This document shows positions 2,571 through 23,954 of a DNA stretch of 35,804 nucleotides, one piece after another. Every line of letters begins with the position of its first letter. Within the stretch, counting starts at the first letter, position 1. The position numbers and the translations under genes were made by a program. The notes beneath the pieces are model-generated. The model had not been told where the DNA came from. It ran no database searches and saw nothing but the letters and a program-made list of their open reading frames with translations. Source of the DNA: Alienimonas chondri (GTDB lineage Bacteria > Planctomycetota > Planctomycetia > Planctomycetales > Planctomycetaceae); NCBI RefSeq assembly GCF_013036045.1, contig NZ_WTPX01000036.1, positions 1 to 35,804 on the forward strand. Direction: 5' to 3'.

Positions 2571-5500
2571 ATGGAGATCGGGATGACCAACGCCAACACC
2601 CTCGCTGCCGCTCGCGGGACGACCGAACGGTCCTCCGCGTCGGCGAGTTCGGGGGAAGACAGGTCTGGTGAAGGTCGCCCTGCTTCTTCCGCGTCTGATT
2701 TCCCCGCGTTCGCCCCGGCGGCGTCCGTCCCCTCGGCTTCCGCCCTTCGGCAGCAAGGACTTCCCGTGCAGAGCTTCACTGATCGTCCCAGCTATCCGTC
2801 GGCTTCTCCGGCCGGCGCTCCGCCGTCTCGGGAAGGAGTCGCTGCGACCGTGCGGCGTCTGACCGAAGTGCTGACGGAAGAGTTGGGCCGCACGGCGCGA
2901 GAACTGACCCAATCGCTCGGCAAAAAAGCGCGCACCGCGGGGGCGTTGGCGATCCTTGCGGCGCCCATGGGCGGACTCGCTCCGCAGGCGATGGCCCAGA
3001 CGGGGGTCGCGCCCCCGCCGCCGGGCGTGTCGGGGTTCCAGCCGGGTCCGGTTCCCGGCGGGGGTCAGCCGTTCACCGATCCGCAAGGGGCGTTCGACGA
3101 GCCGAACGCGCCGTCGCCCCTGTTCCTCGCCCCGGACAGCCCGTTCCGCATGCGGGGCCGGTTGGAAAGCCACGCCGGCGACGGCCGCGGTTACGACAAC
3201 GGCTACACCCGGGCCAACGTCTTCGTCCCCTGGCTGCTGGCCGATCGCAACTCGCTGTTCTTCCTGGACGCGGGCGGGTTCGGCTCCTACGACCACGGGG
3301 CCGGCATGAACATCGGCATGGGCGCCCGCCGTTACTTCGGCGGTCTGGATCAGATCGTCGGAACCAACCTCTGGTTCGATCTCGACGGCGATTTCGACGA
3401 GGACATCACCTTCGCCCGGCTGGGCTTGGGCGTGGAGGCGATCGGCAACACGCTCTCGTTCCGCGGCAACGCCTATATCCCGCTGAACGACGAGGAAGAG
3501 GTCTTTAGCAACCTCTCCAACCCCGCGTTCGTCGGGAACCGGATTACGATCACCCAAACGGACGTGAACCAGCTGTCCTACGGCGGCGTCGAGGGCGAGG
3601 TCGGCGGTCCGCTGCCGTTACTCGGTCAGTACGGCGCCAACGGGTTCGTCGGGCTCTACGCCGTCACCCACAGCGATGCGGAAGACGCGATCGGCGTCTC
3701 CAGTCGACTGGACTGGCGGGTGAATGAAGGCTTGAGCGTCGGCGGCCAGGTGACCAGCGACGACGTGTTCGGCACGAACGTCTGGGCCACGCTCTCCCTC
3801 GCGACTCCGCAGGGCAGCTGGTACGACTTCACGCGGTCCGGCTGGTTCCGGCAGCCCAGCGTGTACGAGACGCTGGACTCCTCGGTGGTTCGTCAGCACC
3901 GCGCCATGCGGACCATCCAGGTGGAAGAGAGCCAGGATAACCTGCAGAACGCGGACGGGACCGACATCCTCGTCTGCCACATCAATCCGAACGCCGCCGG
4001 CGGCGACGGCACGGTGGAGAACCCCTACGGCAGCTTCAGCCCGCTTCTGGGGGCGAACAACTGCCTGGACGGCAACTGCGACATCGTTCGCGTGATCGCC
4101 TCCTCCGCCGCCACCACGCTGGTGACGAACGGTCCGGTGAACCTCTCCCCGAACCAGCAGCTGCTGAGTTCCGCGGAGCGTCAGTTCATCACCGCGACGT
4201 TCCGCGGGACGCAGAGCTCCTTCGAACTGCCCGGCTTCACCGGCGGGGTCCGCCCGACGCTGCGGAACGGGTTCTCGACCCCCAGCTACGTGATCGGTCT
4301 GAACGACAACAACGTCGTCAGCGGCTTCACCATCGACGGGACCGACGGAACCGGCGCCCCCCGGCACGACGGCATCATCTCCATCGGCGACTGTGCCGGC
4401 CTGCCGGCGGACTTCAACACGCTCGCCAGTCATAGGGCGATCACCTCGTTCGACATCAACCGGAACACCTTCCTGAACGTCCGCGACGGCGTGGACATCG
4501 AGCACGTCGGCAACGGCACGGGCGTGTTCCGCGGCAACACGCTGACCGGCAACGGCGTCGCCGGACTGCTGCCCGGCGACCCCGGGTTCAACATCAGCGG
4601 CGCCGGCTTCGACGTCGAAGCCTTGGGCGGCAGCCTGCAGCTGATCGCCGCCAATAACACGATCCGCGGGTTCTACGGCGAGGACGTGAACCGCAACGGC
4701 GTCCAGGACGTCGGCGAAGACTTCGCCTTCCCGCTGACCCCCACCGAGGGCGCCGGCGTCGTCAACGAGGGCTTCGGCATCCGGGTCGCGGCCCTAAACG
4801 GGTCGACCGTGAACTCCACGCTGTCGGGCAACACCGTCACCGACAACGAAACCGGCGTGTCCCTCGAGTCGGACGGTTCGACCCAGACCGCCCGCCTGAC
4901 GGGCAATACGGTCTCGGACAGCGTCGGTCGCACCGCCGGGGTCGAGCTGCTCGCCGACAACGGGGCGACCCTCAGCGCCGCCCTGAGCGGCAACACCGTG
5001 GAGAACAACGGGCTGGCGCCGACCGCCGCCAACCTGCTGCCGAACAACACGTTCGACCCGAACCTCGGTTCGCAGATCCTGGCTCAGATCGACGGCGACC
5101 TGACCGGGACCGGCGGCAGCACGTTGAACCTGAACCTGCAGGACAACACGATCTCGAGCACGACTGCCGGCTCCGACATGGTGCTGGTGGATGCGAACGG
5201 CCTCGCCGCGAATCCGAGCACGGTGAACTTCGTGGGTCAGGGCAACACCCTGACCGGTCGCGCCCCGCAACTCGCCACGGTCGTCGGCGGCCTCGCCCCC
5301 TCGCCCTATCCGGAGCGGATCGGCGGGATGATCTTCGAGATCGAGAACGCCACGCTGAACGCCCAGATCGGCGGCTTGGCCGACGGCGACGGGAACACCA
5401 TCACGCAGGCGGCCGGCGCCGGCATCGCCGTGGTGGCCAGCGGCGGCCCGGCGACGAACGTGAACCTGCGGATCGAGAGCAACGTCATCGCCGACACAAC

Positions 5501-7775
5501 CTTCGACGAGGTGAACATTCCCATCACCAACCCGGGCGGCGGCGGCCCGGTCGTGCCCGGTCAGACCGGCTCTGCCATCACGACCGCCGAATTCGACGAC
5601 CTGTTCGTCGCTCAGAACAACACGAACCAGCAGACGCCTTACCAGGGCGACGGGATCTACGTCCGCACCACCGGGCAGGCCACCATGGATGGGGCCGTCA
5701 TCAACAGGAACGTGGTCACCGGCGCCACGGCGGGTCCGCCCGCGGGTCCGGGCGACGGCATCCAGGTGGTCGCCGCGGGCAGCTCCGTCGTCACCAACCT
5801 GCTGATCGGCGACCCCGGGCCTCCGGGCGGAAACGGCAACGTCGTCACCGGCAACGCCAGCGGCATCCTGGTTCGCCGGCAGGACTCCGCGACCGTCGAC
5901 GGCACCAGGATCATCGACAACGTCGCCTTGGGCAACGCCGTCGCCGGCGTGACGCTGCAAGGCGTCGGAGACGCCAGCGACGAGTTCGACGTCCTGGTCG
6001 CCAACAACAACCTGTCCGGCAACAACCGCATCATCGGCGGCGTCGGCTTCGACGACCGGGCTGGCCTGCGGGTCGAGAACGGGTCACAGAACATCGTCCG
6101 GCTGGACGTGAACAACAACGTGATCCGCGGCAACGGCTCCGACGGGATCCTGCTAACCAACAGCTCCATCGACGGCACGCTGCTGCGGAACCCGCTGACC
6201 GACGCCGCCTCGATCCGCGGCACGATCAACAACAACGACATCTCGGACAACGCCTCCTACGGCATCCACAGCGTCGCCGTCACCGGCGACAACACCCTCG
6301 GCGGTCTCACCCGGGCGGAAGCCGCGGCGGCGGACGAGCTGTTCGTCGCGGACAACTCCATCGTCGGCAACGGCCTCGCCGGCGTGCTGCTGCAGGGGAG
6401 CGGGACGATGTCCTTCTCCGACAACTTGATCGCCGGCAACGGCAGCGGGTTGGCGGACGGCAACGGCGCCGGTATCGACGTCGAAGGCAGCTACTTCGGC
6501 CTGAACTTCAACCGCGACGTCGTCCGCAACAACTTCGGGGACGGCGTGGAGGTGCTGTTCTCGTCGGGCACGACGAACTACATCCGCTTCACCGACCTGA
6601 AGGTGCTGAGCAACGAAGCCCGCGGCTACGATGTCTTGAACCAGGGCAACGTCTTCAGCATCCTCGAGATCGCCGGTACGGTCGCTCCGAGCGTCGCCAA
6701 CCCGCTGGCCGGTTCGCTCATCGACAACAACGGCGGGGAGGCGACCTACATCGTCAACACCGCCAGTACGACGCAGGGACAGGGCGGACCCACGCCTGAA
6801 CCCAGCGGCATCAACCTCATCGCCGCCCGGGCGGACGGGGCCGAGAACCATGGCCTGAACCAGGACGGAGCGTTCACGGCCGATCCGCGACTCAAGTTGC
6901 TGTACACGAACAACCTCGTGACCAACAACGGGCAGGCCGGCACGTTCGACTCGAACGGCCTCGTCATCCGGGTCGGCAGCAGCGACGGCGGCGGCGGCGC
7001 CGGCGACGACGGCGGCTTCGCTTCGAACATCTATGCCGTAACCGCCGGCGCTGACCCGACGGGAGCCGCCTTCGACACCTTCAGGATGAACCGCGGCGGT
7101 GTGGCGGCCGTCGTTCAGAACAACACGTTCGTGGCGAACCTCGGCACGCAGGTGCTGTTCGAAGGCTTCACCAGCACGGTCGATCCGCCGAACACCAACG
7201 TGACCGACGCCGCGACGGGCGCCTTCAACGGCTACGAAAGCGATCCCAAGTCTCGCCTCGACCTGGTCTTCAACGACAACACGTTGTCGAGCGACGCCGG
7301 GACGATCCTCGACGGCGCCATCACCGCCGGCGCCTGGTATGACAACGCGGATCCGATCAAGACCCGCCCGTTCGACAGCGACAACAACCCGGCGACAGCC
7401 TTTAACCCGGGTCCGTTCCCGAACAACTCGAGCCAGACTCGTCGTCGCAACGCGCAACGCCAAGACATCTTGGCAAACAGCGGCGCGACCAACGTCGGCG
7501 GCCAGTTCGTCACCAACAACACCGACTTCCCGCTGGTCGGGTTCGGCGACAGTACCTTCCGCGTCAACTCGTCCAACCCCTTCGCGTCCATCGGAGGCAT
7601 CGTCCCCCTCGTCGTCGGTCTGAACGGCTCCGGGTCGAACACGATCAACGGAGGCCTCGTGACCAACGACAACGCCTTCGGTCCGATCAGCGTGGAGATT
7701 CGCAACGGCGGCGGCCCCATCGGCGAGGACAATGTGAACGGCGGCAGCAGCGACTTCGAGTGGAACCTGGAGTAG
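2571..7775 (+). CDS. Inverse autotransporter (type Ve-like): intimin-type barrel plus beta-helix passenger
   Basis: This is a giant outer-membrane/surface protein of about 1734 residues. A very long N-region precedes a lysine-pair and hydrophobic signal segment (about 118-142, ending AMA before Q). Residues about 190-420 read as an inverse-autotransporter barrel of the intimin/invasin type: alternating aromatic strands, GMGARRYFGG, GTNLWFDLDGDFDED, RLGLGVEAIG and FRGNAYIPL in the family's order. From about residue 465 (NPNAAGGDGTVENPYGSF) to the C-terminus is a right-handed parallel beta-helix passenger with dozens of N-rich coils such as GNTVTDNETGV and recurring LFVADN-like strands. Known type Ve passengers are mostly Ig-like, so a helix passenger is less usual. 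The ATG at 2571 was chosen; ATG 2583, GTG 2766 and TTG 2520 are alternatives. A strong terminator follows. Function is inferred as adhesion or surface-layer display, without direct evidence. Confidence 0.82.
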   Translation: MEIGMTNANTLAAARGTTERSSASASSGEDRSGEGRPASSASDFPAFAPAASVPSASALRQQGLPVQSFTDRPSYPSASPAGAPPSREGVAATVRRLTEVLTEELGRTARELTQSLGKKARTAGALAILAAPMGGLAPQAMAQTGVAPPPPGVSGFQPGPVPGGGQPFTDPQGAFDEPNAPSPLFLAPDSPFRMRGRLESHAGDGRGYDNGYTRANVFVPWLLADRNSLFFLDAGGFGSYDHGAGMNIGMGARRYFGGLDQIVGTNLWFDLDGDFDEDITFARLGLGVEAIGNTLSFRGNAYIPLNDEEEVFSNLSNPAFVGNRITITQTDVNQLSYGGVEGEVGGPLPLLGQYGANGFVGLYAVTHSDAEDAIGVSSRLDWRVNEGLSVGGQVTSDDVFGTNVWATLSLATPQGSWYDFTRSGWFRQPSVYETLDSSVVRQHRAMRTIQVEESQDNLQNADGTDILVCHINPNAAGGDGTVENPYGSFSPLLGANNCLDGNCDIVRVIASSAATTLVTNGPVNLSPNQQLLSSAERQFITATFRGTQSSFELPGFTGGVRPTLRNGFSTPSYVIGLNDNNVVSGFTIDGTDGTGAPRHDGIISIGDCAGLPADFNTLASHRAITSFDINRNTFLNVRDGVDIEHVGNGTGVFRGNTLTGNGVAGLLPGDPGFNISGAGFDVEALGGSLQLIAANNTIRGFYGEDVNRNGVQDVGEDFAFPLTPTEGAGVVNEGFGIRVAALNGSTVNSTLSGNTVTDNETGVSLESDGSTQTARLTGNTVSDSVGRTAGVELLADNGATLSAALSGNTVENNGLAPTAANLLPNNTFDPNLGSQILAQIDGDLTGTGGSTLNLNLQDNTISSTTAGSDMVLVDANGLAANPSTVNFVGQGNTLTGRAPQLATVVGGLAPSPYPERIGGMIFEIENATLNAQIGGLADGDGNTITQAAGAGIAVVASGGPATNVNLRIESNVIADTTFDEVNIPITNPGGGGPVVPGQTGSAITTAEFDDLFVAQNNTNQQTPYQGDGIYVRTTGQATMDGAVINRNVVTGATAGPPAGPGDGIQVVAAGSSVVTNLLIGDPGPPGGNGNVVTGNASGILVRRQDSATVDGTRIIDNVALGNAVAGVTLQGVGDASDEFDVLVANNNLSGNNRIIGGVGFDDRAGLRVENGSQNIVRLDVNNNVIRGNGSDGILLTNSSIDGTLLRNPLTDAASIRGTINNNDISDNASYGIHSVAVTGDNTLGGLTRAEAAAADELFVADNSIVGNGLAGVLLQGSGTMSFSDNLIAGNGSGLADGNGAGIDVEGSYFGLNFNRDVVRNNFGDGVEVLFSSGTTNYIRFTDLKVLSNEARGYDVLNQGNVFSILEIAGTVAPSVANPLAGSLIDNNGGEATYIVNTASTTQGQGGPTPEPSGINLIAARADGAENHGLNQDGAFTADPRLKLLYTNNLVTNNGQAGTFDSNGLVIRVGSSDGGGGAGDDGGFASNIYAVTAGADPTGAAFDTFRMNRGGVAAVVQNNTFVANLGTQVLFEGFTSTVDPPNTNVTDAATGAFNGYESDPKSRLDLVFNDNTLSSDAGTILDGAITAGAWYDNADPIKTRPFDSDNNPATAFNPGPFPNNSSQTRRRNAQRQDILANSGATNVGGQFVTNNTDFPLVGFGDSTFRVNSSNPFASIGGIVPLVVGLNGSGSNTINGGLVTNDNAFGPISVEIRNGGGPIGEDNVNGGSSDFEWNLE

Positions 7776-7810
7776 TCCCCCCGCGGGAAACCTTCATCAC
7801 GGTGAACCGA

Positions 7811-7842
7811 CGCCGTCCCGCATTCGCGGGGCGGCGTTTTTT
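7811..7842 (+). terminator. Intrinsic terminator of the type Ve autotransporter gene
   Basis: An 11-bp GC-rich stem (CGCCGTCCCGC at 7811-7821 with 7826-7836, one G-T wobble) closes a four-base loop and is followed by six T residues (7837-7842). It lies 35 bases after the stop codon. It is the clearest intrinsic terminator in the window and implies that the downstream giant gene needs its own promoter. Confidence 0.9.
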
Positions 7843-7872
7843 ATTGCGTTCGTCAGATCCATCAGGCGGCCG

Positions 7873-7976
7873 GGGCGTCTGCTGTGAGTCCGAAGCGCGA
7901 GCGGGGCAGGCGAATCGCGCTCTTCGCTTGAGCTTCAGGCTCACTGCGTGAAGCCGCACCGATCCATCGGACGCAC
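7873..7976 (-). repeat. Palindromic intergenic repeat, copy B (inverted relative to copy A)
   Basis: This is the reverse-complement partner of 2061-2164, with the same length and no gaps. It begins about 30 bases after the terminator T-run. Together the two copies bracket the type Ve autotransporter gene in opposite orientations. The central GCGCGATTCG block is identical in both copies, and most differences cluster near the GTGCGTCCGA end. Confidence 0.75.
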
Positions 7977-8219
7977 GATCGGCGGCCACGTCGGCTGACT
8001 CACCGACTCGGCGCCGGCGACGGCCCCGCGTATGCCGCCCGCGGAACGGCCCGGGAGGCCGGACCGGGCGGCAATCCGCACGAGAACCAGCGCAGGCATC
8101 CGCCGCGCAGGCCTACGCCGCTCCCGGTGAGCGGGTTCGCCCGCCTCCCACGAAGACGGGTTCACGGCGAAATAGCCCTTCTGCGGCCGGCTGCACGCCC
8201 CGAAGCCGAGGGGGACTGT

Positions 8220-8289
8220 TTAGAGACGCCGGATATCCCCTACCCCGCCGTAATCTCTAAGACCGCCAAGACTTAAGTCGTTTTTGGCG
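8220..8289. promoter_or_regulatory. Cluster of small inverted repeats upstream of the type Va autotransporter
   Basis: Within 70 bases there are a 7-bp inverted repeat (TTAGAGA 8220-8226 with TCTCTAA 8254-8260), the palindrome GGATATCC (8231-8238), and CGCCAA (8264-8269) paired with TTGGCG (8284-8289) enclosing the perfect 10-bp palindrome GACTTAAGTC (8270-8279). The segment is less GC-rich than its surroundings. It may be an operator or promoter region of the downstream gene; no known consensus is recognised. Confidence 0.35.
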
Positions 8290-8473
8290 CTGTGACAGAA
8301 GATCGACAAGCCGGATTCGGCAGAACGGATTCACCCGGTCCTACCGCTTATCCGAATTTCTTAATGTCTATTTTCCGAGCGATCGGAGAACCGGCAGCTT
8401 CTCGAGGTCGGGTGTGGGCATGGCCCACCGCCCCGGGAGGAATCGATCCACAGTTCTCCGGCCCCTCGCTCAA

Positions 8474-11400
8474 ATGCGTCGCCATCACGTCCGCCCAACG
8501 GCAGCGTCGTCGGGCCGGGGAACAGTTCGCACGATTCCTGCGAGAAAAGGCCCGCGGTTGCGGCGTTGGGTACGTCGTCTCCTGCCCTGGCTGCCGGCCG
8601 CCGCGATCGCGTTCGCGCCCCCGCCGACGGCGAGCGGGCAAATCACGATCGACGGGCTGCTCTCCACGCCGATCCTCCCCTATCAGGTGATCGCGGGTGA
8701 CCTGCTCACCTTGCCCGGGCTGCTGGAGGTCGCCGACGACGGCTACCTGCAAGTGCTCGGCCCCGGGGGGACGTTCGTCACCGACGACTTTCTGAACAGC
8801 GGCTCCACGACCATTTTCTCGGGCGGGGCGATTCAGATCGAACCCGGCGGGGACGTCTCCGTCCTCGACGGCACGCTGACCGTCGGCGGCCTGCTGACGG
8901 GGGGCGAGGACTTCAATCTCAGGGGCGGGGACGTCGTTACGGAGAACAGCGGTCTGATCACCGCCGAGATCCTCGCTCAGACCGGCGGATTATTGCAGGT
9001 CGACGGCACGGTCTCCCTCCTCGGCGACGCCTCCGTGACGGACGCCGACGAGGCGGCGCTCCTCACCGTCAACGACGGCGGAACGTTCGAAGCCCTCAGC
9101 TTGGATCTCTCCGCAGCCGCCCTGAACGGCGTCGCGGCCACGCTCGACGGAGCCGTGACGCTGAACGCCGGCGGCGCCGCGACGGACGGCGGCGTACTGA
9201 ACGTCGGCGACGGCGCGACCGCCGCCGTGGGCGGAATCACGACCGTGATCGGCGAGGCTGAGGTGAACGGCGACGGATCGCTGCTGACGGTGACCGAGGA
9301 CGGCGACCTGATCGTCGACGTATTGAACGTCGCCGGGGGGGCCGTGGTGGTGGATTCCGGCGGGACGGATGGGTTACTGACGGTCGCCGCCGGCGCGACG
9401 ATCGGCGACGGGATCGGCGCGGGCGGTTCGCTGACGATCGACGGCGACGCCGACCTCGGTTCGACGGAGGTGAACGACGACGGCTTGCTGCACGTCTCCG
9501 GCGCCCTCGTCACCGACCTGTTGTCGACCGCCGGCGACGTGACGCTGGACCTCGGCGGCCTGCTCGATGCGGACGCCCTCTTCGTCGACGACGGCTCCGT
9601 GGACCTGAACGGCGCCGCGAGCCTCGGCCTCACCACGATCGTCGGCGACGCGAATGTCTGCATCGGCCCGACCGGGGTGGTGGATACAGCGAACCTCCTC
9701 GGCGTCGTCCAAGATTTGCACGTCACCGGCGGCGCCCTGAAGGTGGATGCCGGCGGCCTCCTGACCGCCGCGACGCTAAACCAGAGCGGCGGGACCGTCA
9801 CCGTCGCCGAGAGCGGCGGAACCTTCGGCACGTTGAACCTCGACGGCGGCAGCGTCGCCCAAGGCACGCTGACCGTCGACGGCGCCCTCAACTCGGCGGG
9901 CCTGCTGTCCGTGGGGACCGGCGGAACCTTGCAGCTCGGCGGAACGGGGGCGCTGATCGCCGACGCCCTGGCGATCGGCGACGGCGCCGCGGCCGTCATC
10001 GGCGGCGACCTGAATGTCAACGGCGTGTGGACCGTCGACGGCGGAACCGTCGTCATCGAGCAGGACAGCGCCGCCTCCGCCGGCGCCCTCGACGTGTTCG
10101 GGACCGGCTCCGTCACCGTCGACGCCGTCACCACCGGGACGAACGACGGGCTGCTGACGATTTTCGGGGCCACCCGCATCGGCAGCGCCGCCCGCACCGG
10201 CGGGACGGTCGCCGTGAACGGCGACGCCCTCTTCGGAACCACGGCGATCGATAACGGCGGGGCGTTGACGGTCTCCGGCGAAGCGGACCTCGGCAGCCTG
10301 TCGATCCGCGGCCTGGGCGACGGCGGAACGCTGAGCGTCGGCGCCCTCGGCGACCTGACCGCCGGCGCCCTCTCGCAAACCGGCGGGATCGTCGCGCTGG
10401 ACGGCACGACGCTGTTCGACAGCCTAAACGTCAGCGGCGGCACGTTCTCCGCGGACGGAACGCTGACGACCAACGGACTCGCGACGTTCTCCGCGCCCGG
10501 CGCGACGCTGTCCGGCCGGTCCTCGTTCGTCGGCTTGACGGTCTCCGACGGATCGCTGACCGCCTCCGGGCGGATCGCCGGTTTGAACGGCCTGACCGCG
10601 GGCGCCGCCGGCACGTCGATCAACGGCGGCTCGCTCACCGTCGCCGGCGACGCCGCTCTTGGAATGACGCAGGTGGCCGGCGGCCGGTTGAACGTCGACG
10701 GCGCCCTGACGACCCGTGACGGCTTCACCCTCACCGATCCTCTTCGCACGCTGACCGTCGGCGCCGGCGGGCTGCTCGACGTCGGAGAGACCGGCCTGCT
10801 CGACGCCTCCGACTTCGAGATTTCGGCGGGGGGAGTCGCGTTGATCGACGGCGCCGCCGCCCTCACCGACGATCTCACGATCGGGGGGGACGGCAGCCTG
10901 CTGTCGCTCGGCGGGAGCGGGACGCTCGGCGGCGGGAATCTCGCGCTCACGGACGGCGGCGATCTCGCCTCCCTCGGCGCCCTGACCCTCGCCGGCGCCG
11001 CGAACGTCGACGGGGTCGGCTCCTCGCTCGCGTTGAATGCGGGAATGTTCGACGCCGCGTCGTTGGCGATCACCGGGGGCGGTTCCGCGACGAGCGCGGG
11101 CCTCGCGGCGCTGACCGGCGGGGCGACCGTGTCCGGGGTCGGATCGTCGCTGCGCGTCTCCGGGGGCATGTTCGAGGCGGACTCGCTCGGTCTGACGGAC
11201 GGCGGGGCCGCGATCCTCAACGGCGGCACGACGACCCTCACCGGCGCCGCGAACGCCGACGGAGCGGGTTCCCTGCTGAGCGTCGGGACCGCCGGCACGT
11301 GGAACGGCACGACGCTCGGACTGACGAACGGAAGCGGGCTCCTCTCCGGGGGCGACGTGAACCTCTCCGGCGCCGCCGCGGTCGACGGCCTCGGCTCGAA

Positions 11401-14400
11401 CCTCGCCCTGACCGCCGGCACGTTCGATACGGCGTCGCTCGCTCTGACCGGGGGCGGCTCGGCGACCGTCGGCGCCCTCGCCGAGCTGAACGCCGCCGTG
11501 GCGACGATCGGCGACGGGACGGACGGCGGGGCGCTGACGATCGCCGGAACCGGTTCGCTGGCGTCGGCGACCATCCTCAGCGACGGCACGCTGACCGTCG
11601 ACGGCGCCGCCTCCGCCGATTCGCTCGACAACGCCGGCGCCCTGTTCGTCCGCGGCTCCGGGGCGTTGACGGTCGACGGCGTCCTCGCCCAGACGGCGGG
11701 GACCGGCGACGTGTCGGGCACGGCGGATCTCGGCTCGCTGAGCGTCACCGGCGGAGCGTTCGGCGGAGCCGGCACGGTGAACGTTGCGGCCGACGCGAGC
11801 TTCGCCGGCGGTACGAATCACGCCTTCGCCGGCCCGTTGACCGTCGGCGGGGATCTGACCGTCTCCGGGGGGAACGTCTCCTCCGCCGGAACCGCGGACG
11901 CCGACGGCGGCCTGACCGTCGCCGGAGCGACCGACGTCCGCGGCGGATCGCTGACGATCTCCGGCGACGCCCTCGCGGGGGAGACGAACCTCTCCGGCGG
12001 CCTGCTGGCGGTCGCCGACGGCGGCGTGCTGGACGCCGGCGCCCTCACCCACAGCGGCGGCACGTTGACCGTCGCCGACGGCGGCTCCTTCCTCGCGGAC
12101 CTCCTCGAACAAACCGGCGGCTCCGCGACCGTCGCCGGCCTCGCCACGCTGACGGACGATCTCTCGATCGCGAACGACGGCGCCCTGCTGACCGTCGGCG
12201 AAACCGGCGCCCTCAACGCGGACGATCTGGGCCTCTCGGACGGCGGCGACCTCAGCTCAGCCGGGGACGTGAACCTGACGGGCGCCGCGACCGTCGACGG
12301 GATCGGTTCCTCGCTGGCTCTCACCGGGGGCACGTTCGACGCGGCGACGCTGGCGATCACGGGGGCCGGTTCCGTCACCACGGCGGCGACCTCCTCGCTG
12401 AACCTCGTCAACACGGCCCTGACCGACGGCGTGCTGACCGCCGAGGGCGCCGCGGATCTCGGAACCCTCGCGATCGCCGCGGCGGGGACGCTGAACGCCG
12501 ACGGGGCGGTCTCGGTCGACGCGGCGACGACGATCGGGACGCTCTCCGTCGGGACCGGCGGCACGCTGACCGCGACCGGCGCCCTCACCCAAATTGCGGG
12601 AACCACGACCGTCGACGGAACGTTGGACGGAACCGACCTCACCCTGACCGGCGGGACGTTCGTATCGACCGGAGCGGTGGATCTGTCCGGGACCGCCGCG
12701 GTCGACGGAGCCGGGGCGCCGTTGACCGTCGCCGCGGGCACGTTCGACGCCGCGACGCTGGCGCTGACGGGGTCGGCGTCGGTGACGGTCGATGCGGGGG
12801 CGACGCTCGCCGCGCTCGCGACGGACCTCGCGGACGGCACGCTGACGGTGTACGGCGCCGCGGACCTCGGGGACGGTGCCGTCGCCGAGGACGGCACGTT
12901 GCTGATCGACGGCGCCCTGTCCGCCGACACGCTCTCCTCCGCGGGGACCGTAACGCTCAACGCCGGCCGCACGCTGGACGCCGATGTCGTCTCCGTGACG
13001 GACGGCGTGTTCGATCTCCACGGGACCGCCTCGCTGGGGACGGCCAACGTCGCCGGCGGCGCGCTGACCGTCGAAGCCGGCGCCGACCTCACCGCGGATG
13101 AATTGATTCAAAGCGGAGGGTCGGTCTCCGTGCTGGCCGGGAGCACGCTGGACGGGACGACGCTTGAGGTGACGGGCGGAACGCTCGACTCCGCCGGCGA
13201 TCTGAATCTCGCCGAGGCGGTCGAGGCGACGGGGGCCGGTTCGCTGCTCAACGTGACCGCCGGCGCGGTGGAGACGGATTCGTTCCGAGCGACCGACGGC
13301 GGCGCCGCGGTGATCGACGGGGGAACGGTGACGGCCGCCGGCGCCGCGCTGATCGACGGGATCGGTTCCTCATTGGTCCTGAATCCCGGCGGGGCGCTGG
13401 CGGCCGACACGCTGACGATCTCCGACGGGGCCCGCGGCGTGACCGACGGGGACGTGGACGTCTCGGACATGGCTCTCATCACCGGGGCGGGTTCGACGCT
13501 GGACGTGATCGGAGGTTCGTTCGACACCGATCTGTTCTGCGTGGAGGACGGCGCCGTCGTCACCCTCGCGACGGATTTCTTGCTGAACGGCGTGCTGACC
13601 GTCGACGGCGCCGGTTCGACCCTGAACGCCGCGTCCGGCACGCTGACCGCCGGGTCCACGGAGGTGACGAACGGCGGCACGCTGAACGTGGACGCGGCCG
13701 TCTCCGTCGTCGACGACACCACGCTGAACCGCGGCACGTTGAACCTGCGAACCGGCGGCGCCACGTACTCCACCGACCTCTTCGAGGCCACGAACCAGTC
13801 GACCGTGACGATCGCCGGCGGCGCCACGCTGACGGCCCGGACGTTCAACATCAGCGCCGACAGCGATCTGACGCTCGCGGACAACGGCAATCTGATCGCC
13901 GACGACCTCAATTTGATGAGCGGGGCGCGGCTGTCGGTTCAGAGCGGCCACACCGCGACCAGCAGCGGCCGGGTGCTGATCACGGAGGGATCGACCACGA
14001 ACGTGAACGGCGCCTTTCAGTCCAAATCGTTCCTGTTGGAGTTCGGCGGACGGATCGGCGGAAGCGGCACCTTCCGGGTGACGGGTCTGGACCTGGGAGA
14101 CGCGTTCCTCTCCCGCGGCACGATCGCCCCCGGTAACAGCCCCGGCGTGCTGACGATCGACGGGGACTTCACGGGCACGCCGGCCAGCGTGTTCGACATG
14201 GAACTGGTCGCCGTGCAGGCGGGCGAGACGCCGGTCGCCGGCGTGGACTTCGACCGGCTGGCCGTGACCGGCGCCGCGACGCTCGACGGCGGGACGTTCA
14301 ATGCGATCCGCTTCACGCCGGACGGAGAGCCGGCCCGGAGGTATCAGGTCGGCACGCGGTACGACGTGCTGACCGCGGACGGCGGACTGACGATCGCCGG

Positions 14401-15628
14401 CCAGCCGGTCATCGCGAGTTCCATTTCGGGGGTGCGGTTCGCTCAGATCATCACGGCGAACAGCTTCGGGCTCGTCGTGGTCGAAGATCTGTCCTCCTAC
14501 GAACGACAGCACGCGACGAGCTTCAATCAATCCTCCGTCGCCTCCGCGCTGGACGCGCATCGGGAGTCGCGGGATCTGATCCGCCTGCGGGATTCGCTGG
14601 ACACCCTGCCCTCCTCCGCCGCCGTGGCCGATGCGTTGGATCAGCTGTCCGGGGAAGTCCACGCGACCCATCTGGCGAGTTTGAACCGCAGTTCGCTGCA
14701 CTTTCTGGACGCCGTCGCCGCCCGGGACGCCGCGTTCCCGCTGGCCTTCGACCTGGACGCCGTCGGCGCCCACGGCTTGACCGGCTGGATGGACACCACC
14801 GGCGCCGTGGGCCGGGTGCAGAGCGACGACAACGCCGGCGAGGCCGAGGTGAGCACGATCGGCACGACGGTCGGGCTGACGCAGCGCTTCCGCCACGCGA
14901 GGGGCCGCGTCGCCCTGGGCGGGTTCTACGGGTTTGAATCCGTCGACACGACCGTCGACGCGGTGCGCTCTCGGGCGCAGACGGACGTGCATCGGTTCGG
15001 GGCGTCGGCGCGGGGGAACCTCGGCCGCATCTACGGACGGCTGATTGGCTTCGGGGGGGTCTCGGAGACGAGCGCCCGCCGGTCCGTAGAGATCGACAAT
15101 CCGCTGATCCCCTTCTCAGCCCGTCACACGGCGAGCAGTCACGGACCGCTCGCGGGCGCCGATGCGGAAGCCGGCATGCTGTTCGGCGGCTCCGGCGCCT
15201 ACGTCACCCCGGTCTTCGGCCTGCGATACGTCCGCGCATCGCAGGACGGCTTCACCGAGTCCGGCGGGCCGACGGCGCTACGGGTGGAAGACGCCTCGTT
15301 GAGCGAACTGCGGGCCCGCCTCGGCGCCCGGGCCGGGGGGCGTTTGGGACAGGTGTCCGGCGTCCGGGTCACCGGCACGCTGGAAGCGTTTTATAGTCGC
15401 GACGTGTCGGCCGATTCGATCGGTCAGGTGCGAGCCGAGTTGCTCGGGGCCCCCGGCACCATCTTCACGACCCGCGGGGCGGACTTCGGCCGGGACCGCG
15501 TGACGCTCGGTCCCGGCGTCACGCTGGGCGGCGGCGGACCGCTGACGGTCGCCGCCTTCTATCGGGCCGGCCTCAGCCGCGAATCCGTGCTTCACGCCGG
15601 CGACGTGCGGTTGGAATATCGTTTCTAA
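8474..15628 (+). CDS. Giant classical autotransporter (type Va) with repetitive passenger
   Basis: This protein of about 2384 residues has an Arg-rich N-region, a hydrophobic signal segment (about 38-54) ending ASG before Q56, a repetitive passenger (about 56-2090) and a C-terminal barrel (about 2099-2384). The passenger consists of short G/T/D-rich strands (GGxLTVDG, GSSLALTAGTFD), typical of a beta-solenoid. Near residue 1880 the segment GTIAPGNSPGVLTIDGDF matches the conserved passenger/barrel-linking region of autotransporters. The barrel has alternating amphipathic strands and ends in YRF, with a terminal aromatic as expected for BAM recognition. Only two cysteines are evident in the passenger. 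The ATG at 8474 gives the most compact signal peptide; GTG 8414 and ATG 8420 are alternatives. The protein is probably translocated through its own barrel and displayed on the surface. The ligand is unknown. Confidence 0.87.
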   Translation: MRRHHVRPTAASSGRGTVRTIPARKGPRLRRWVRRLLPWLPAAAIAFAPPPTASGQITIDGLLSTPILPYQVIAGDLLTLPGLLEVADDGYLQVLGPGGTFVTDDFLNSGSTTIFSGGAIQIEPGGDVSVLDGTLTVGGLLTGGEDFNLRGGDVVTENSGLITAEILAQTGGLLQVDGTVSLLGDASVTDADEAALLTVNDGGTFEALSLDLSAAALNGVAATLDGAVTLNAGGAATDGGVLNVGDGATAAVGGITTVIGEAEVNGDGSLLTVTEDGDLIVDVLNVAGGAVVVDSGGTDGLLTVAAGATIGDGIGAGGSLTIDGDADLGSTEVNDDGLLHVSGALVTDLLSTAGDVTLDLGGLLDADALFVDDGSVDLNGAASLGLTTIVGDANVCIGPTGVVDTANLLGVVQDLHVTGGALKVDAGGLLTAATLNQSGGTVTVAESGGTFGTLNLDGGSVAQGTLTVDGALNSAGLLSVGTGGTLQLGGTGALIADALAIGDGAAAVIGGDLNVNGVWTVDGGTVVIEQDSAASAGALDVFGTGSVTVDAVTTGTNDGLLTIFGATRIGSAARTGGTVAVNGDALFGTTAIDNGGALTVSGEADLGSLSIRGLGDGGTLSVGALGDLTAGALSQTGGIVALDGTTLFDSLNVSGGTFSADGTLTTNGLATFSAPGATLSGRSSFVGLTVSDGSLTASGRIAGLNGLTAGAAGTSINGGSLTVAGDAALGMTQVAGGRLNVDGALTTRDGFTLTDPLRTLTVGAGGLLDVGETGLLDASDFEISAGGVALIDGAAALTDDLTIGGDGSLLSLGGSGTLGGGNLALTDGGDLASLGALTLAGAANVDGVGSSLALNAGMFDAASLAITGGGSATSAGLAALTGGATVSGVGSSLRVSGGMFEADSLGLTDGGAAILNGGTTTLTGAANADGAGSLLSVGTAGTWNGTTLGLTNGSGLLSGGDVNLSGAAAVDGLGSNLALTAGTFDTASLALTGGGSATVGALAELNAAVATIGDGTDGGALTIAGTGSLASATILSDGTLTVDGAASADSLDNAGALFVRGSGALTVDGVLAQTAGTGDVSGTADLGSLSVTGGAFGGAGTVNVAADASFAGGTNHAFAGPLTVGGDLTVSGGNVSSAGTADADGGLTVAGATDVRGGSLTISGDALAGETNLSGGLLAVADGGVLDAGALTHSGGTLTVADGGSFLADLLEQTGGSATVAGLATLTDDLSIANDGALLTVGETGALNADDLGLSDGGDLSSAGDVNLTGAATVDGIGSSLALTGGTFDAATLAITGAGSVTTAATSSLNLVNTALTDGVLTAEGAADLGTLAIAAAGTLNADGAVSVDAATTIGTLSVGTGGTLTATGALTQIAGTTTVDGTLDGTDLTLTGGTFVSTGAVDLSGTAAVDGAGAPLTVAAGTFDAATLALTGSASVTVDAGATLAALATDLADGTLTVYGAADLGDGAVAEDGTLLIDGALSADTLSSAGTVTLNAGRTLDADVVSVTDGVFDLHGTASLGTANVAGGALTVEAGADLTADELIQSGGSVSVLAGSTLDGTTLEVTGGTLDSAGDLNLAEAVEATGAGSLLNVTAGAVETDSFRATDGGAAVIDGGTVTAAGAALIDGIGSSLVLNPGGALAADTLTISDGARGVTDGDVDVSDMALITGAGSTLDVIGGSFDTDLFCVEDGAVVTLATDFLLNGVLTVDGAGSTLNAASGTLTAGSTEVTNGGTLNVDAAVSVVDDTTLNRGTLNLRTGGATYSTDLFEATNQSTVTIAGGATLTARTFNISADSDLTLADNGNLIADDLNLMSGARLSVQSGHTATSSGRVLITEGSTTNVNGAFQSKSFLLEFGGRIGGSGTFRVTGLDLGDAFLSRGTIAPGNSPGVLTIDGDFTGTPASVFDMELVAVQAGETPVAGVDFDRLAVTGAATLDGGTFNAIRFTPDGEPARRYQVGTRYDVLTADGGLTIAGQPVIASSISGVRFAQIITANSFGLVVVEDLSSYERQHATSFNQSSVASALDAHRESRDLIRLRDSLDTLPSSAAVADALDQLSGEVHATHLASLNRSSLHFLDAVAARDAAFPLAFDLDAVGAHGLTGWMDTTGAVGRVQSDDNAGEAEVSTIGTTVGLTQRFRHARGRVALGGFYGFESVDTTVDAVRSRAQTDVHRFGASARGNLGRIYGRLIGFGGVSETSARRSVEIDNPLIPFSARHTASSHGPLAGADAEAGMLFGGSGAYVTPVFGLRYVRASQDGFTESGGPTALRVEDASLSELRARLGARAGGRLGQVSGVRVTGTLEAFYSRDVSADSIGQVRAELLGAPGTIFTTRGADFGRDRVTLGPGVTLGGGGPLTVAAFYRAGLSRESVLHAGDVRLEYRF
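10985..13640 (+). repeat. Diverged 41-42 residue coding repeats in the passenger
   Basis: A unit beginning VDGxGSSLxL, followed by GGTFDAATLALTGGGS, recurs about every 123-126 bases from 11006 (11006, 11129, 11255, 11381). It appears again near 12290, 12700, 13230, 13354, 13485 and 13603. The copies differ at many third positions but keep the G, L and D framework. This indicates amplification of a solenoid turn followed by divergence. Confidence 0.65.
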
Positions 15629-15670: not shown

Positions 15671-16108
15671 TCAGCCGGCCGCCAGGCTGATTAAAATCAG
15701 GACGACCACCGCCGCCCACAGCAGGGCGAAGAACCCGCCGCAGCCGATGCCGATCCAGGCGTGGGCGGAGCCTTTCACCGCCGGGTTCGCCCGCCGCTTT
15801 TTCAGCCCCATAATGCCCAACACGAACGCCGCGATGCCCAGCGGCAGACCGATCAGCGGAAATCCGCTGCCGATGCCGAGGTAATAGGCGATCAACGCCG
15901 GCGGGTTTTTATACGGAATGACGCCGCCGGTCGAATCGCCCTCGTCTTCGCCGGCGCGGAAATCGTCCTCGTCCTCCTCGAACAGTTCGTCCGGCCCGTC
16001 GTCGGCGGCGTAGCGTTCCGAGACCGGACGCGGCTCGCCGCAGGCTTCGCACGCCTTCGCCCCCGGGGGATTGGCGTAGCCGCAAACGGGGCAGAGGGGA
16101 CGGGGCAC
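15671..16108 (-). CDS. Zinc-ribbon, DUF4190-like small membrane protein
   Basis: The protein is about 145 residues from the GTG at 16108, which gives an N-terminus starting just before the metal site. A TTG at 16180 would add 24 arginine-rich residues and overlap the divergent gene. The N-terminus is a zinc ribbon (CPVCG, ten residues, then CEACG). An acidic linker rich in D/E follows, then two or three transmembrane segments: a glycine-rich hydrophobic stretch around LGIGSGFPLIGLPLGIAAF ending in LKKRRA, and a C-terminal helix. This layout is common in small bacterial inner-membrane proteins of the DUF4190 type; their biochemical role is unknown. It lies tail to tail with the giant autotransporter (43 bases apart) and is divergent from the dioxygenase-like gene. 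Confidence 0.75.
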   Translation of the reverse strand: MPRPLCPVCGYANPPGAKACEACGEPRPVSERYAADDGPDELFEEDEDDFRAGEDEGDSTGGVIPYKNPPALIAYYLGIGSGFPLIGLPLGIAAFVLGIMGLKKRRANPAVKGSAHAWIGIGCGGFFALLWAAVVVLILISLAAG

Positions 16109-16223
16109 GGCGAGCCTGATCGAATGGGTCGCTCGATTGAACCGCCCGCCCCGGCGGAGTTCAACGTCGCCCGGTTCCAACCGGGCCGCACGGGCTCTCG
16201 GCGTTATGTATTCTCCCGATACG

Positions 16224-22073: not shown

Positions 22074-23954
22074 CTACCGCGACTCGTCCGCAACCGCGAA
22101 CGCCCGCGCCGAAGGCGGCGCCGGGCGCCTCCTTTCCGGGGCCATCTCCGGGTAGCTGACGAGGTAGCGATTCTCGTCGATAAAATTGAAGACATAGTGC
22201 GTGGTCCCGTCCGGCAGCGTCGCCTCGGCGCGCTCGCCGTCGAGCCGGGCGGGCAGGCGATACCACTCCTCGTATCGCTCCCCGCCGTTGTTCGTATAGA
22301 GCAGGTCGACTTGGACGACGTCCGCCCCGCGTTCTTCAAACGTCGCCCACACGACGTTTCCGTCCCGGCCGTGGTCCAGCGGACGGCAGACCTTCTTGCG
22401 ATTCGCCCCCGCCCGCGGGGCTTGGGGATTGAGATACGGCGGGCTGGCGTTCATCTCGTCGAGGCGCCGCTGAAGTTCCGCATTCATCGCCGCGGCCAGC
22501 TCCGGCCGCTCCGCAGCGAGGTCGCGGGCCTCTTCGATGTCGACGCGGTTCCCTCGCTCGTCGTAGAGTTCAAACAGGTCCAACCCCTCCTGCCCCGGCA
22601 GCAGCGCCTCGTTCCAGTTGCGGATCAGCTTTTCCCCGCCGATCCGAATCGTGGACTGCATCGAACTGTGCGGAAAGTGCCAGACCATCGTCTCGCGGGG
22701 GACGCCGTCGGCCTCCCGGATGACGGGCCGATCCGCCGGGTCCGCCGCTAAGTAAGGGGCGAGGCTCACGCCGTCGAGCCGCTGCGAGGCCGGCCGTTCG
22801 GCGCTGGTCCACTCGAGAATCGTGGGATAGAAGTCGAGGCCGTTGACCATCGCGTCCGAGACCGCGCCGGCCGGGATCCCGGGACCGCGAACGATCAACG
22901 GCACCCGCACGCCGCCCTCCTTGGCATTAATCTTGCCTTTATCGAGCGGCCGATTGTCCGTGATCTCCTCGCCGGGAACCCGCTCCATCCCGCCGTTGTC
23001 GGAGGTGAAGATGACGTAGGTGTTTTCGGCCAGCGTATGCCCCGGCCGTCGCGGGTCTTCGGTCTCGTCTAAATAGCTGATCACCTCGCCGACGTAGTGA
23101 TCGAGCATCTCCACCATCGCCCCGTAATACGGGTTCCGCTGTCCCTCCAAGAGCCATTCGTCCGGCTCCGTCGGGAACGGAACGTTCATCTTCTCGCAAT
23201 ACTTCCGCAGCAACGCTTCGGAGCGGGTATGGATCGGCGTGTGGACCAGCCAGGTCGCGTGATACAGAAAGAACGGCTCCGCTTTGTGCGTCCGCAGGAA
23301 CGTCAGCGCGTCCTCCGTATTCTGATCGAAGGGGAAGCCGTCTTCGTCCAGGCGATACGGGTCGTTCTCGTCGGCAGTCGCGAAGTCCGTCAGGCGATGC
23401 GGACGCTGGGGCACGGTCGCGCCGCGGTCGGCGCGGGTGAAGTCGAACCCCTGATCCGCCGGCTGCGGGAAGGCGTTGTGATTAATGGCGACGTGCCATT
23501 TGCCGACGTGCCCGGTCGTATAACCGTGCGGCTTCAACGCCTCCGCGATCGTGACGTCGCTGAGCGGCATCCGCCCGCTGTACCAAGGCGAAATCAACGG
23601 CGAAGCGGCGACGTGCGGCGCCGGCGGGGCGCCGCCGACGACATGCGTTTTCTGCGCGCGAGCCGGGTGCGTGCCGCTGAGGATCGCGGCCCGCGACGGG
23701 GCGCAGGTCGGGGCGGGCGAATAAGCTTGCCGGAACAGCGTGCCCCGGCTCGCCAGCCGGTCGATATTCGGCGTTTCAAACGGGCACGGCTCGTCGACGT
23801 CGTAGCAGCCGACGTCCTGCCAGCCCAGATCGTCGACGAGGATGAGCACCACGTTGGGTCGCGGCGCCTCCTCGGCGCCGGACGCCGACGGAGATCCCGC
23901 GTAGCTCAGAAGAATCGCGAACGTCGCGACTTGGATATGGTCAGCAACCGACAT
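22074..23954 (-). CDS. Secreted formylglycine-dependent sulfatase
   Basis: This 626-residue arylsulfatase-family enzyme hydrolyses sulfate esters, probably on a polysaccharide. An N-terminal signal segment (about 8-26) indicates export. The key residues are in place: the metal ligands D41-D42 (LILVDDLGW), C84 in CAPSR as the formylglycine site with R88, K152 and H154 in GKWH, H238, and D319-N320 in SDNGG. The catalytic sequence CxPSR is of the type matured by formylglycine-generating enzyme or anaerobic sulfatase maturase; neither is seen in this window. The C-terminal 100 residues form the smaller beta domain. The natural substrate is unknown. Such sulfatases are greatly expanded in marine planctomycetes. 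A small perfect hairpin lies just upstream of the start. Confidence 0.93.
   Translation of the reverse strand: MSVADHIQVATFAILLSYAGSPSASGAEEAPRPNVVLILVDDLGWQDVGCYDVDEPCPFETPNIDRLASRGTLFRQAYSPAPTCAPSRAAILSGTHPARAQKTHVVGGAPPAPHVAASPLISPWYSGRMPLSDVTIAEALKPHGYTTGHVGKWHVAINHNAFPQPADQGFDFTRADRGATVPQRPHRLTDFATADENDPYRLDEDGFPFDQNTEDALTFLRTHKAEPFFLYHATWLVHTPIHTRSEALLRKYCEKMNVPFPTEPDEWLLEGQRNPYYGAMVEMLDHYVGEVISYLDETEDPRRPGHTLAENTYVIFTSDNGGMERVPGEEITDNRPLDKGKINAKEGGVRVPLIVRGPGIPAGAVSDAMVNGLDFYPTILEWTSAERPASQRLDGVSLAPYLAADPADRPVIREADGVPRETMVWHFPHSSMQSTIRIGGEKLIRNWNEALLPGQEGLDLFELYDERGNRVDIEEARDLAAERPELAAAMNAELQRRLDEMNASPPYLNPQAPRAGANRKKVCRPLDHGRDGNVVWATFEERGADVVQVDLLYTNNGGERYEEWYRLPARLDGERAEATLPDGTTHYVFNFIDENRYLVSYPEMAPERRRPAPPSARAFAVADESR

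Follow-up and report, generated by a model that had tools for sequence, protein, structure and literature searches.

Gene 1 of the window (the whole stretch of 35,804 nucleotides that was analysed) is best explained as a type Ve, or inverse, autotransporter (IAT) of a planctomycete family, in which a long right-handed β-helix takes the place of the Ig-like passenger and export would follow the route proposed below; its neighbour, gene 2, is best explained as an independent type Va autotransporter. We put the probability of this reading as a whole at roughly 0.83. Profile matches, a predicted model and conservation in the family support the barrel, the module order and the fold of the initial stretch of the passenger; we infer that BAM alone inserts the barrel, that the linker passes out as a hairpin, which way folding runs, that the protein is exposed at the surface and that it serves as an adhesive or structural rod. 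An earlier note on this DNA had described two neighbouring frames of opposite topology, each encoding more than 1700 residues; the frames encode 1734 and 2404 amino acids, with a Ve barrel in the first and a Va barrel in the second. Its attribution of the DNA to a planctomycete also holds, eight of nine named relatives being planctomycete records. The features of the two genes are as follows.

2571..7775, plus strand: gene 1, 1734 amino acids plus stop (open reading frame, PF11924, PF13229, fold, syntenic orthologue)
2571..2921, plus strand: N-terminal extension of gene 1, about 117 amino acids before the putative signal peptide (comparison with the congener, BLASTP)
2922..2996, plus strand: putative Sec signal peptide of gene 1 (KKAR...AMA-Q), read by eye from the translation
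3138..3920, plus strand: predicted 12-stranded outer-membrane barrel of gene 1 and the linker expected in its pore (model; PF11924 at 3210-3500)
3960..7772, plus strand: predicted right-handed parallel β-helix passenger of gene 1, about 1270 amino acids (Pfam; model of the part up to 5189)
7809..7838, plus strand: terminator-like hairpin of 13 pairs followed by a T run, between the genes
8414..15628, plus strand: gene 2, classical (type Va) autotransporter, 2404 amino acids plus stop (open reading frame, PF03797)
8650..14700, plus strand: gene 2 passenger, Gly/Ala/Leu/Thr-rich repeats of about 19-20 residues (glycine autocorrelation over shuffle level)
14786..15556, plus strand: gene 2 C-terminal barrel, PF03797 (profile match; protein end ...VRLEYRF)

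The N-terminal barrel of gene 1

The open frame of gene 1 begins with a TTG at 2520 and has an ATG at 2571. The start at 2571 is favoured because the orthologue in a congener (genome G001) aligns from the methionine encoded there, residue 18 of the 2520 frame corresponding to residue 1 of the orthologue in BLASTP. Over the first 60 residues, the extension that precedes the putative signal peptide (2571-2921) is 72% identical to that of the congener, which is about the level of the barrel.

In a Pfam scan the barrel is recognized by PF11924 (E 1.9e-11; 44.5 bits against a cut-off of 22.3), the search by which the earlier note had proposed to verify its intimin-type assignment; the match spans profile positions 64-152 of 279, about one third of the profile. 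Gene 1 is the sole match of PF11924 in a search of its own genome, and likewise the sole match of the family barrel profile introduced below. An AlphaFold model of 700 residues (window 3090-5189), built from 9 sequences, has a mean pLDDT of 68, with weak stretches in the passenger; its barrel has 12-13 strands, and ten-residue blocks across residues 21-240 have mean pLDDT values of 65-93. Among solved structures, Foldseek ranks invasin (4e1t) and intimin (4e1s and 5g26) at the top for this barrel. With these as the best solved matches and 12-13 strands in the model, the closed N-terminal barrel of the earlier note survives structure prediction.

Alignment of the barrel to the three structures with VIA-align gives Z 24.1-24.2 over 227-229 of 241-245 residues at an rmsd of 2.6-2.7 (for 4e1s, Z 24.2, 228 residues and 2.6), and the other barrels listed for the model reach Z 16.8 and under (e.g., 8xua and FapF, 5o65). 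Model residues from about 17 to 277 lie on intimin residues 208-449 and invasin residues 146-390, an alignment that extends past the last strand into the linker. The barrel is 14-19% identical in sequence to those of the solved intimin and invasin; a phmmer search of the barrel against the PDB found nothing significant, the better of two weak matches being 4e1t at E 0.48. As modelled, the N-terminus of gene 1 is an intimin/invasin-type 12-stranded barrel.

The predicted β-helix passenger of gene 1

The passenger is matched by the Pfam families Beta_helix (PF13229; 6e-17, best stretch 6222-6575) and NosD (PF05048; 2.7e-7, at 4800-5021). In the model, residues from about 291 (about 144 in some rows) to 700 match right-handed β-helix enzymes and phage tailspikes with Z 16.5-19.9; a single model thus holds an intimin/invasin barrel with its linker and a β-helix. 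The Pfam scan of the gene 1 protein found no Ig-like (Big) or C-type lectin family, the passenger has no match among PDB sequences, and no repeat period in it exceeds those of shuffled sequences; tandem repeats in the DNA are short ones only. The predicted structure is that of a type Ve barrel carrying a right-handed β-helix, the fold usual in type Va passengers.

Compared section by section with its congener orthologue, gene 1 is 71-81% identical in the passenger and 65% in the barrel; being better conserved between the two species than the barrel, the passenger appears to be under constraint. That conservation would also suit a protein in which the barrel is an outer-membrane anchor and the β-helix a polysaccharide-degrading enzyme at the cell surface, as would the matches of the helix part to GH and lyase β-helices and phage depolymerases and the presence of a sulfatase gene nearby (22077-23954). 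However, those matches are to the fold and not to a catalytic site, which shows no activity, many rows are equally good, and no enzyme family profile matches the passenger, so we regard an enzymatic role as unlikely. The reading preferred here is that gene 1 is an inverse autotransporter whose β-helix would serve as an adhesive or structural rod.

Gene 2 and the gene neighbourhood

Gene 2 starts with a GTG at 8414 or with an ATG six bases on, at 8420. The C-terminal barrel that the earlier note had assigned to it is borne out by PF03797, which matches the last 308 amino acids (E 7e-34; profile positions 2-252 of 255) and matches in the genome search as well; PF03797 is absent from the list given by hmmscan for the full-length protein of 2404 amino acids. 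Since a single-sequence model of the C-terminus is uninformative (mean pLDDT only 31.9), the barrel call rests on the PF03797 match and the C-terminal ...RLEYRF. The barrel has no match among PDB sequences and no relatives in viral contigs or plasmid records. The passenger has no Pfam or NCBIfam match; to judge from its repeats, it is probably a β-helix. PF03797 matches 8 frames of the same genome (9 matches), on contigs C32, C58, C75, C90, C286, C323, C346 and C350; the congener has 11 matches, and every other genome of the 59 searched has 3 or fewer.

The pair is flanked on one side by genes for a HAD hydrolase and a DHDPS-family protein, and on the other side by genes for a zinc-ribbon/DUF4190-like protein (below Pfam cut-offs), an AI-2E family transporter, two MscS-type channels, a sulfatase, IMPDH and an rRNA dimethylase-like protein. 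The flanks in the congener are collinear with those of the window. Between them the order is IAT-Va-ORF in the window and Va-Va-Va-ORF-IAT in the congener, where ORF is the DUF4190-like gene. This minus-strand gene (window 15671-16180; L063:19206-20000, running into L064) stays by the Va genes in both species; it is the IAT gene that has switched sides.

The IAT proteins of the two species are 71% identical over their full length. The best Va match of gene 2 in the congener is 45.5% identical over 966 residues, the proteins having 2404 and 1130 amino acids. Conservation of gene 1 along its length, set against a gene 2 passenger that diverges in both length and sequence, suggests separate roles.

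Outside the genus, the pairing is not repeated. PF03797 is present in 12 of 59 genomes, and both kinds of barrel (PF11924 or the family profile, plus PF03797) occur together in 10 of the 59; in none of the 8 both-kind genomes outside the genus are the two genes close. Over 0.4 Mb separates the IAT and Va barrels in the two single-contig genomes among them (G013 and G018); the remaining six have them on separate contigs, all in fragmented assemblies, which weakens this negative result.

The earlier note had suggested that the two proteins together form one surface apparatus, a coat or an adhesion machine. Adjacency is what speaks for this: the genes adjoin in the window, and in the congener the IAT gene has the closest of three Va genes 2.6 kb away, measured between the barrels. 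The chance of proximity within 12 kb for that single IAT gene is about 3.5%, with 8 taken as a rough count of Va sites. Proximity in the two genomes counts as one observation, not two, because of their shared ancestry. Against a joint apparatus stand the change of gene order between the two genomes of the genus, the 8 further both-kind genomes with the genes far apart or on different contigs (6 of them fragmented), the strong divergence of the gene 2 passenger while that of gene 1 is conserved, and the terminator-like hairpin between the genes, although one such hairpin is expected by chance (1 observed between the genes against a shuffle average of 0.8). On synteny, gene order, terminators and co-location together, we reject the joint apparatus as very improbable; as to the conservation of the gene pair that the earlier note had asked about, proximity is confined to the two genomes of the genus that were compared, and the order differs between them. 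Gene 2 reads as an independent type Va autotransporter that came to neighbour gene 1 by happenstance in the genus Alienimonas.

A planctomycete family of inverse autotransporters

Sixty genes, that of the congener among them, were fetched around PF11924 matches and make 61 with the window gene; in 59 of the 61 the barrel match starts no more than 340 codons from the start of the open frame. A family barrel profile of 40 rows, which covers most of its length in most matches, finds members in 38 of the 59 genomes searched, that of the window among them, compared with 27 for PF11924. Of the 37 genomes that belong to the window's bacterial family it finds 35, with up to 8 copies, and of the 22 outside it 3, one with weak pieces only; the rows were drawn from the same genomes as were searched, so this figure is a count of members and not an independent test. 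Across a sample of 392 genomes of the phylum, PF11924 is found in 29, of which 27 (the window's own included) belong to the window's family. A search for related loci gave 9 named records, 8 from planctomycetes (7 labelled Planctomycetaceae) and 1 from Chlamydiae; the barrel in the Chlamydiae MAG (L139:1760-2713) lies in a frame of 318 amino acids with almost no passenger.

Beta_helix is matched in 70 of 97 members, leaving 27 without a match. By set, this is 45 of 61 among the fetched genes and the window gene (22 of 31 and 24 of 31, the window being in both), 12 of 16 representatives of new clusters from the phylum scan, and 13 of 20 genes matched by the family profile and not by the initial PF11924 search. 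At E up to 0.01, the families listed for the 97 members include no Ig-like or lectin family. A few members (e.g., L079 and L096) have very little beyond the barrel. In a planctomycete of another family (L072:1623-4220; PF11924 E 6e-40), a FecR match replaces Beta_helix in the passenger. A V-x-R-N motif after the barrel was considered as a family marker and dropped, being present in only 20 of 59.

That the gene 1 barrel is of another 12-stranded outer-membrane family, merely intimin-like and not exporting its C-terminus, is hardly credible: the PF11924 match is partial, identity to the solved barrels is low and PF11924 finds 2 of the 20 family-profile-only members, but intimin and invasin come clearly first (Z 24 against 16.8 and under for the other listed barrels), the aligned stretch takes in the linker after the last strand, and PF11924 is found in 31 of 31, 24 of 31 and 14 of 16 members of the sets that were drawn from PF11924 matches.

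Gene 1 thus appears, on the sequence evidence, to represent a planctomycete branch of the inverse autotransporters with β-helix passengers, a large family that is apparently undescribed. The earlier note had remarked neither on the β-helix nor on the spread of the family through the lineage. Heinz et al. (2016) reportedly deal with the inverse autotransporter family.

In the parts of the literature at hand, inverse autotransporters are placed almost exclusively in Gammaproteobacteria, though their identification in different phyla is also cited (PMC6714894). The available part of one table gives family 1.B.54 for Proteobacteria, Chlamydiae, Cyanobacteria and Chlorobi, with Planctomycetes not among them (PMC4827864), and in the consulted portion of the founding survey planctomycetes come up only as carriers of non-family proteins with Big motifs (PMC3008723). 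As far as the accessible text of each goes, a survey of secretion systems has no Ve profile (PMC4793230), a survey of fibrillar adhesins contains two IAT_beta proteins with the phylum not named (PMC8286594), and a paper on sponge microbiomes mentions inverse autotransporters for Alphaproteobacteria and Endozoicomonadaceae only (PMC10947273). A full-text search, whose coverage omits most subscription papers, returned no description of the present family in the text it reached.

Proposed export route

In the route proposed for gene 1, Sec export would come first and BAM would then insert the N-terminal 12-stranded barrel. The linker would exit through the barrel as a hairpin; the membrane-proximal coils of the helix would be the first to fold outside the cell and the rest would follow from the N- to the C-terminus, the end product being a rod attached to the cell. 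This would mirror the type Va route. For the latter, the available part of a review gives as the proposed drive a β-helix that folds outside the cell, starting at its C-terminal end; the Ig-like domains of intimin are thought to fold singly (PMC8151025). The same excerpt states that inverted autotransporters have no identified autochaperone or stable core, and that intimin and FdeC require TAM (PMC8151025).

The earlier note had proposed a check for BamA and TamA in the genome. The genome has one Omp85 protein with four POTRA matches in the same frame; a search for TamB gave no match in it (355 contigs, 97% complete; a divergent copy could escape the search), the same search matching in 6 of 14 well-known genomes run as a control. 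With one Omp85 protein and no TamB match, a route by BAM only is the simplest reading.

The C-terminal proline

In a first set of 55 complete members, 40 have proline as their last residue; in a second set the count is 23 of 46, the latter being further PF11924 matches of the phylum scan and heavy with one genus. The two sets together have 63 of 101 members ending in proline and 24 ending in phenylalanine or tyrosine. After clustering at 50% identity, proline is the majority ending in 49 of 69 clusters, and in 10 of 16 among the clusters made up of new sequences only. A test set was chosen after the idea had been noted: 20 of the available genes that match the family profile without a PF11924 match, 3 of them incomplete at the fetched end; 14 of the 17 complete genes end in proline.

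As background, proline ends 11 of 143 long frames of the fetched loci that lie outside the family, these frames being taken by a simple longest-frame rule and not by gene prediction. For β-helix proteins outside the family the count is 1 of 15. The 30 control loci behind this figure gave 25 frames (5 loci being second matches), and removal of 6 family members and 2 incomplete frames left 17, two of them ending in proline; the count of 15 further leaves out L144 (one of these two, in a 1920-residue frame of genome G005 that is a family member) and L146 (read in a wrong frame). Because the sequences are related, the proline counts do not represent independent events, although the clusters at 50% identity point the same way. 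Neither the window protein nor its orthologue follows this trend, both ending in NLE. Recurring end motifs, such as GELPFGWG.F and ..VNG...P, are seen in members (L072-L130, L170-L215, L219-L238).

It is possible, and we offer it only tentatively, that this lineage has evolved a mirror-image form of autotransport, in which a β-helix is exported through intimin-type barrels and folds from the N- to the C-terminus without TAM, and in which the C-terminal proline (or aromatic residue) serves as an end tag or cap, protecting or releasing the tail, the last part to be exported.

Comparison with known systems

A Ve barrel joined to a single long β-helix separates the direction of export from the fold of the passenger; because both variables are separated, such proteins would allow a direct test of what drives autotransport. 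The family also extends type Ve to Planctomycetaceae, where its profile is found in nearly every genome sampled and PF11924 in only part of them (38 against 27 of the 59 genomes), and it is a candidate component of the little-known planctomycete cell surface.

With NosD and Beta_helix proteins (PF05048 and PF13229) gene 1 shares the fold of its passenger; these profiles also match many proteins in the same genomes that are outside the barrel family. With type Ve proteins (intimin, invasin, FdeC and YeeJ; PF11924; TC 1.B.54) it shares an N-terminal 12-stranded barrel, an intimin-aligned linker and a C-terminal passenger. It differs from them in having a β-helix, whereas the type Ve passengers described in the available parts of two papers are Ig-like or lectin-like domains (PMC6555100; PMC6714894), and in a genome with no TamB match, whereas intimin and FdeC need TAM, as stated in the portion of the review cited above (PMC8151025). 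Type Va (PF03797) is the class to which gene 2 belongs, and gene 1 shares with it the combination of a barrel and a β-helix; in gene 1, however, the order of the modules is reversed and the barrel is of the Ve family.
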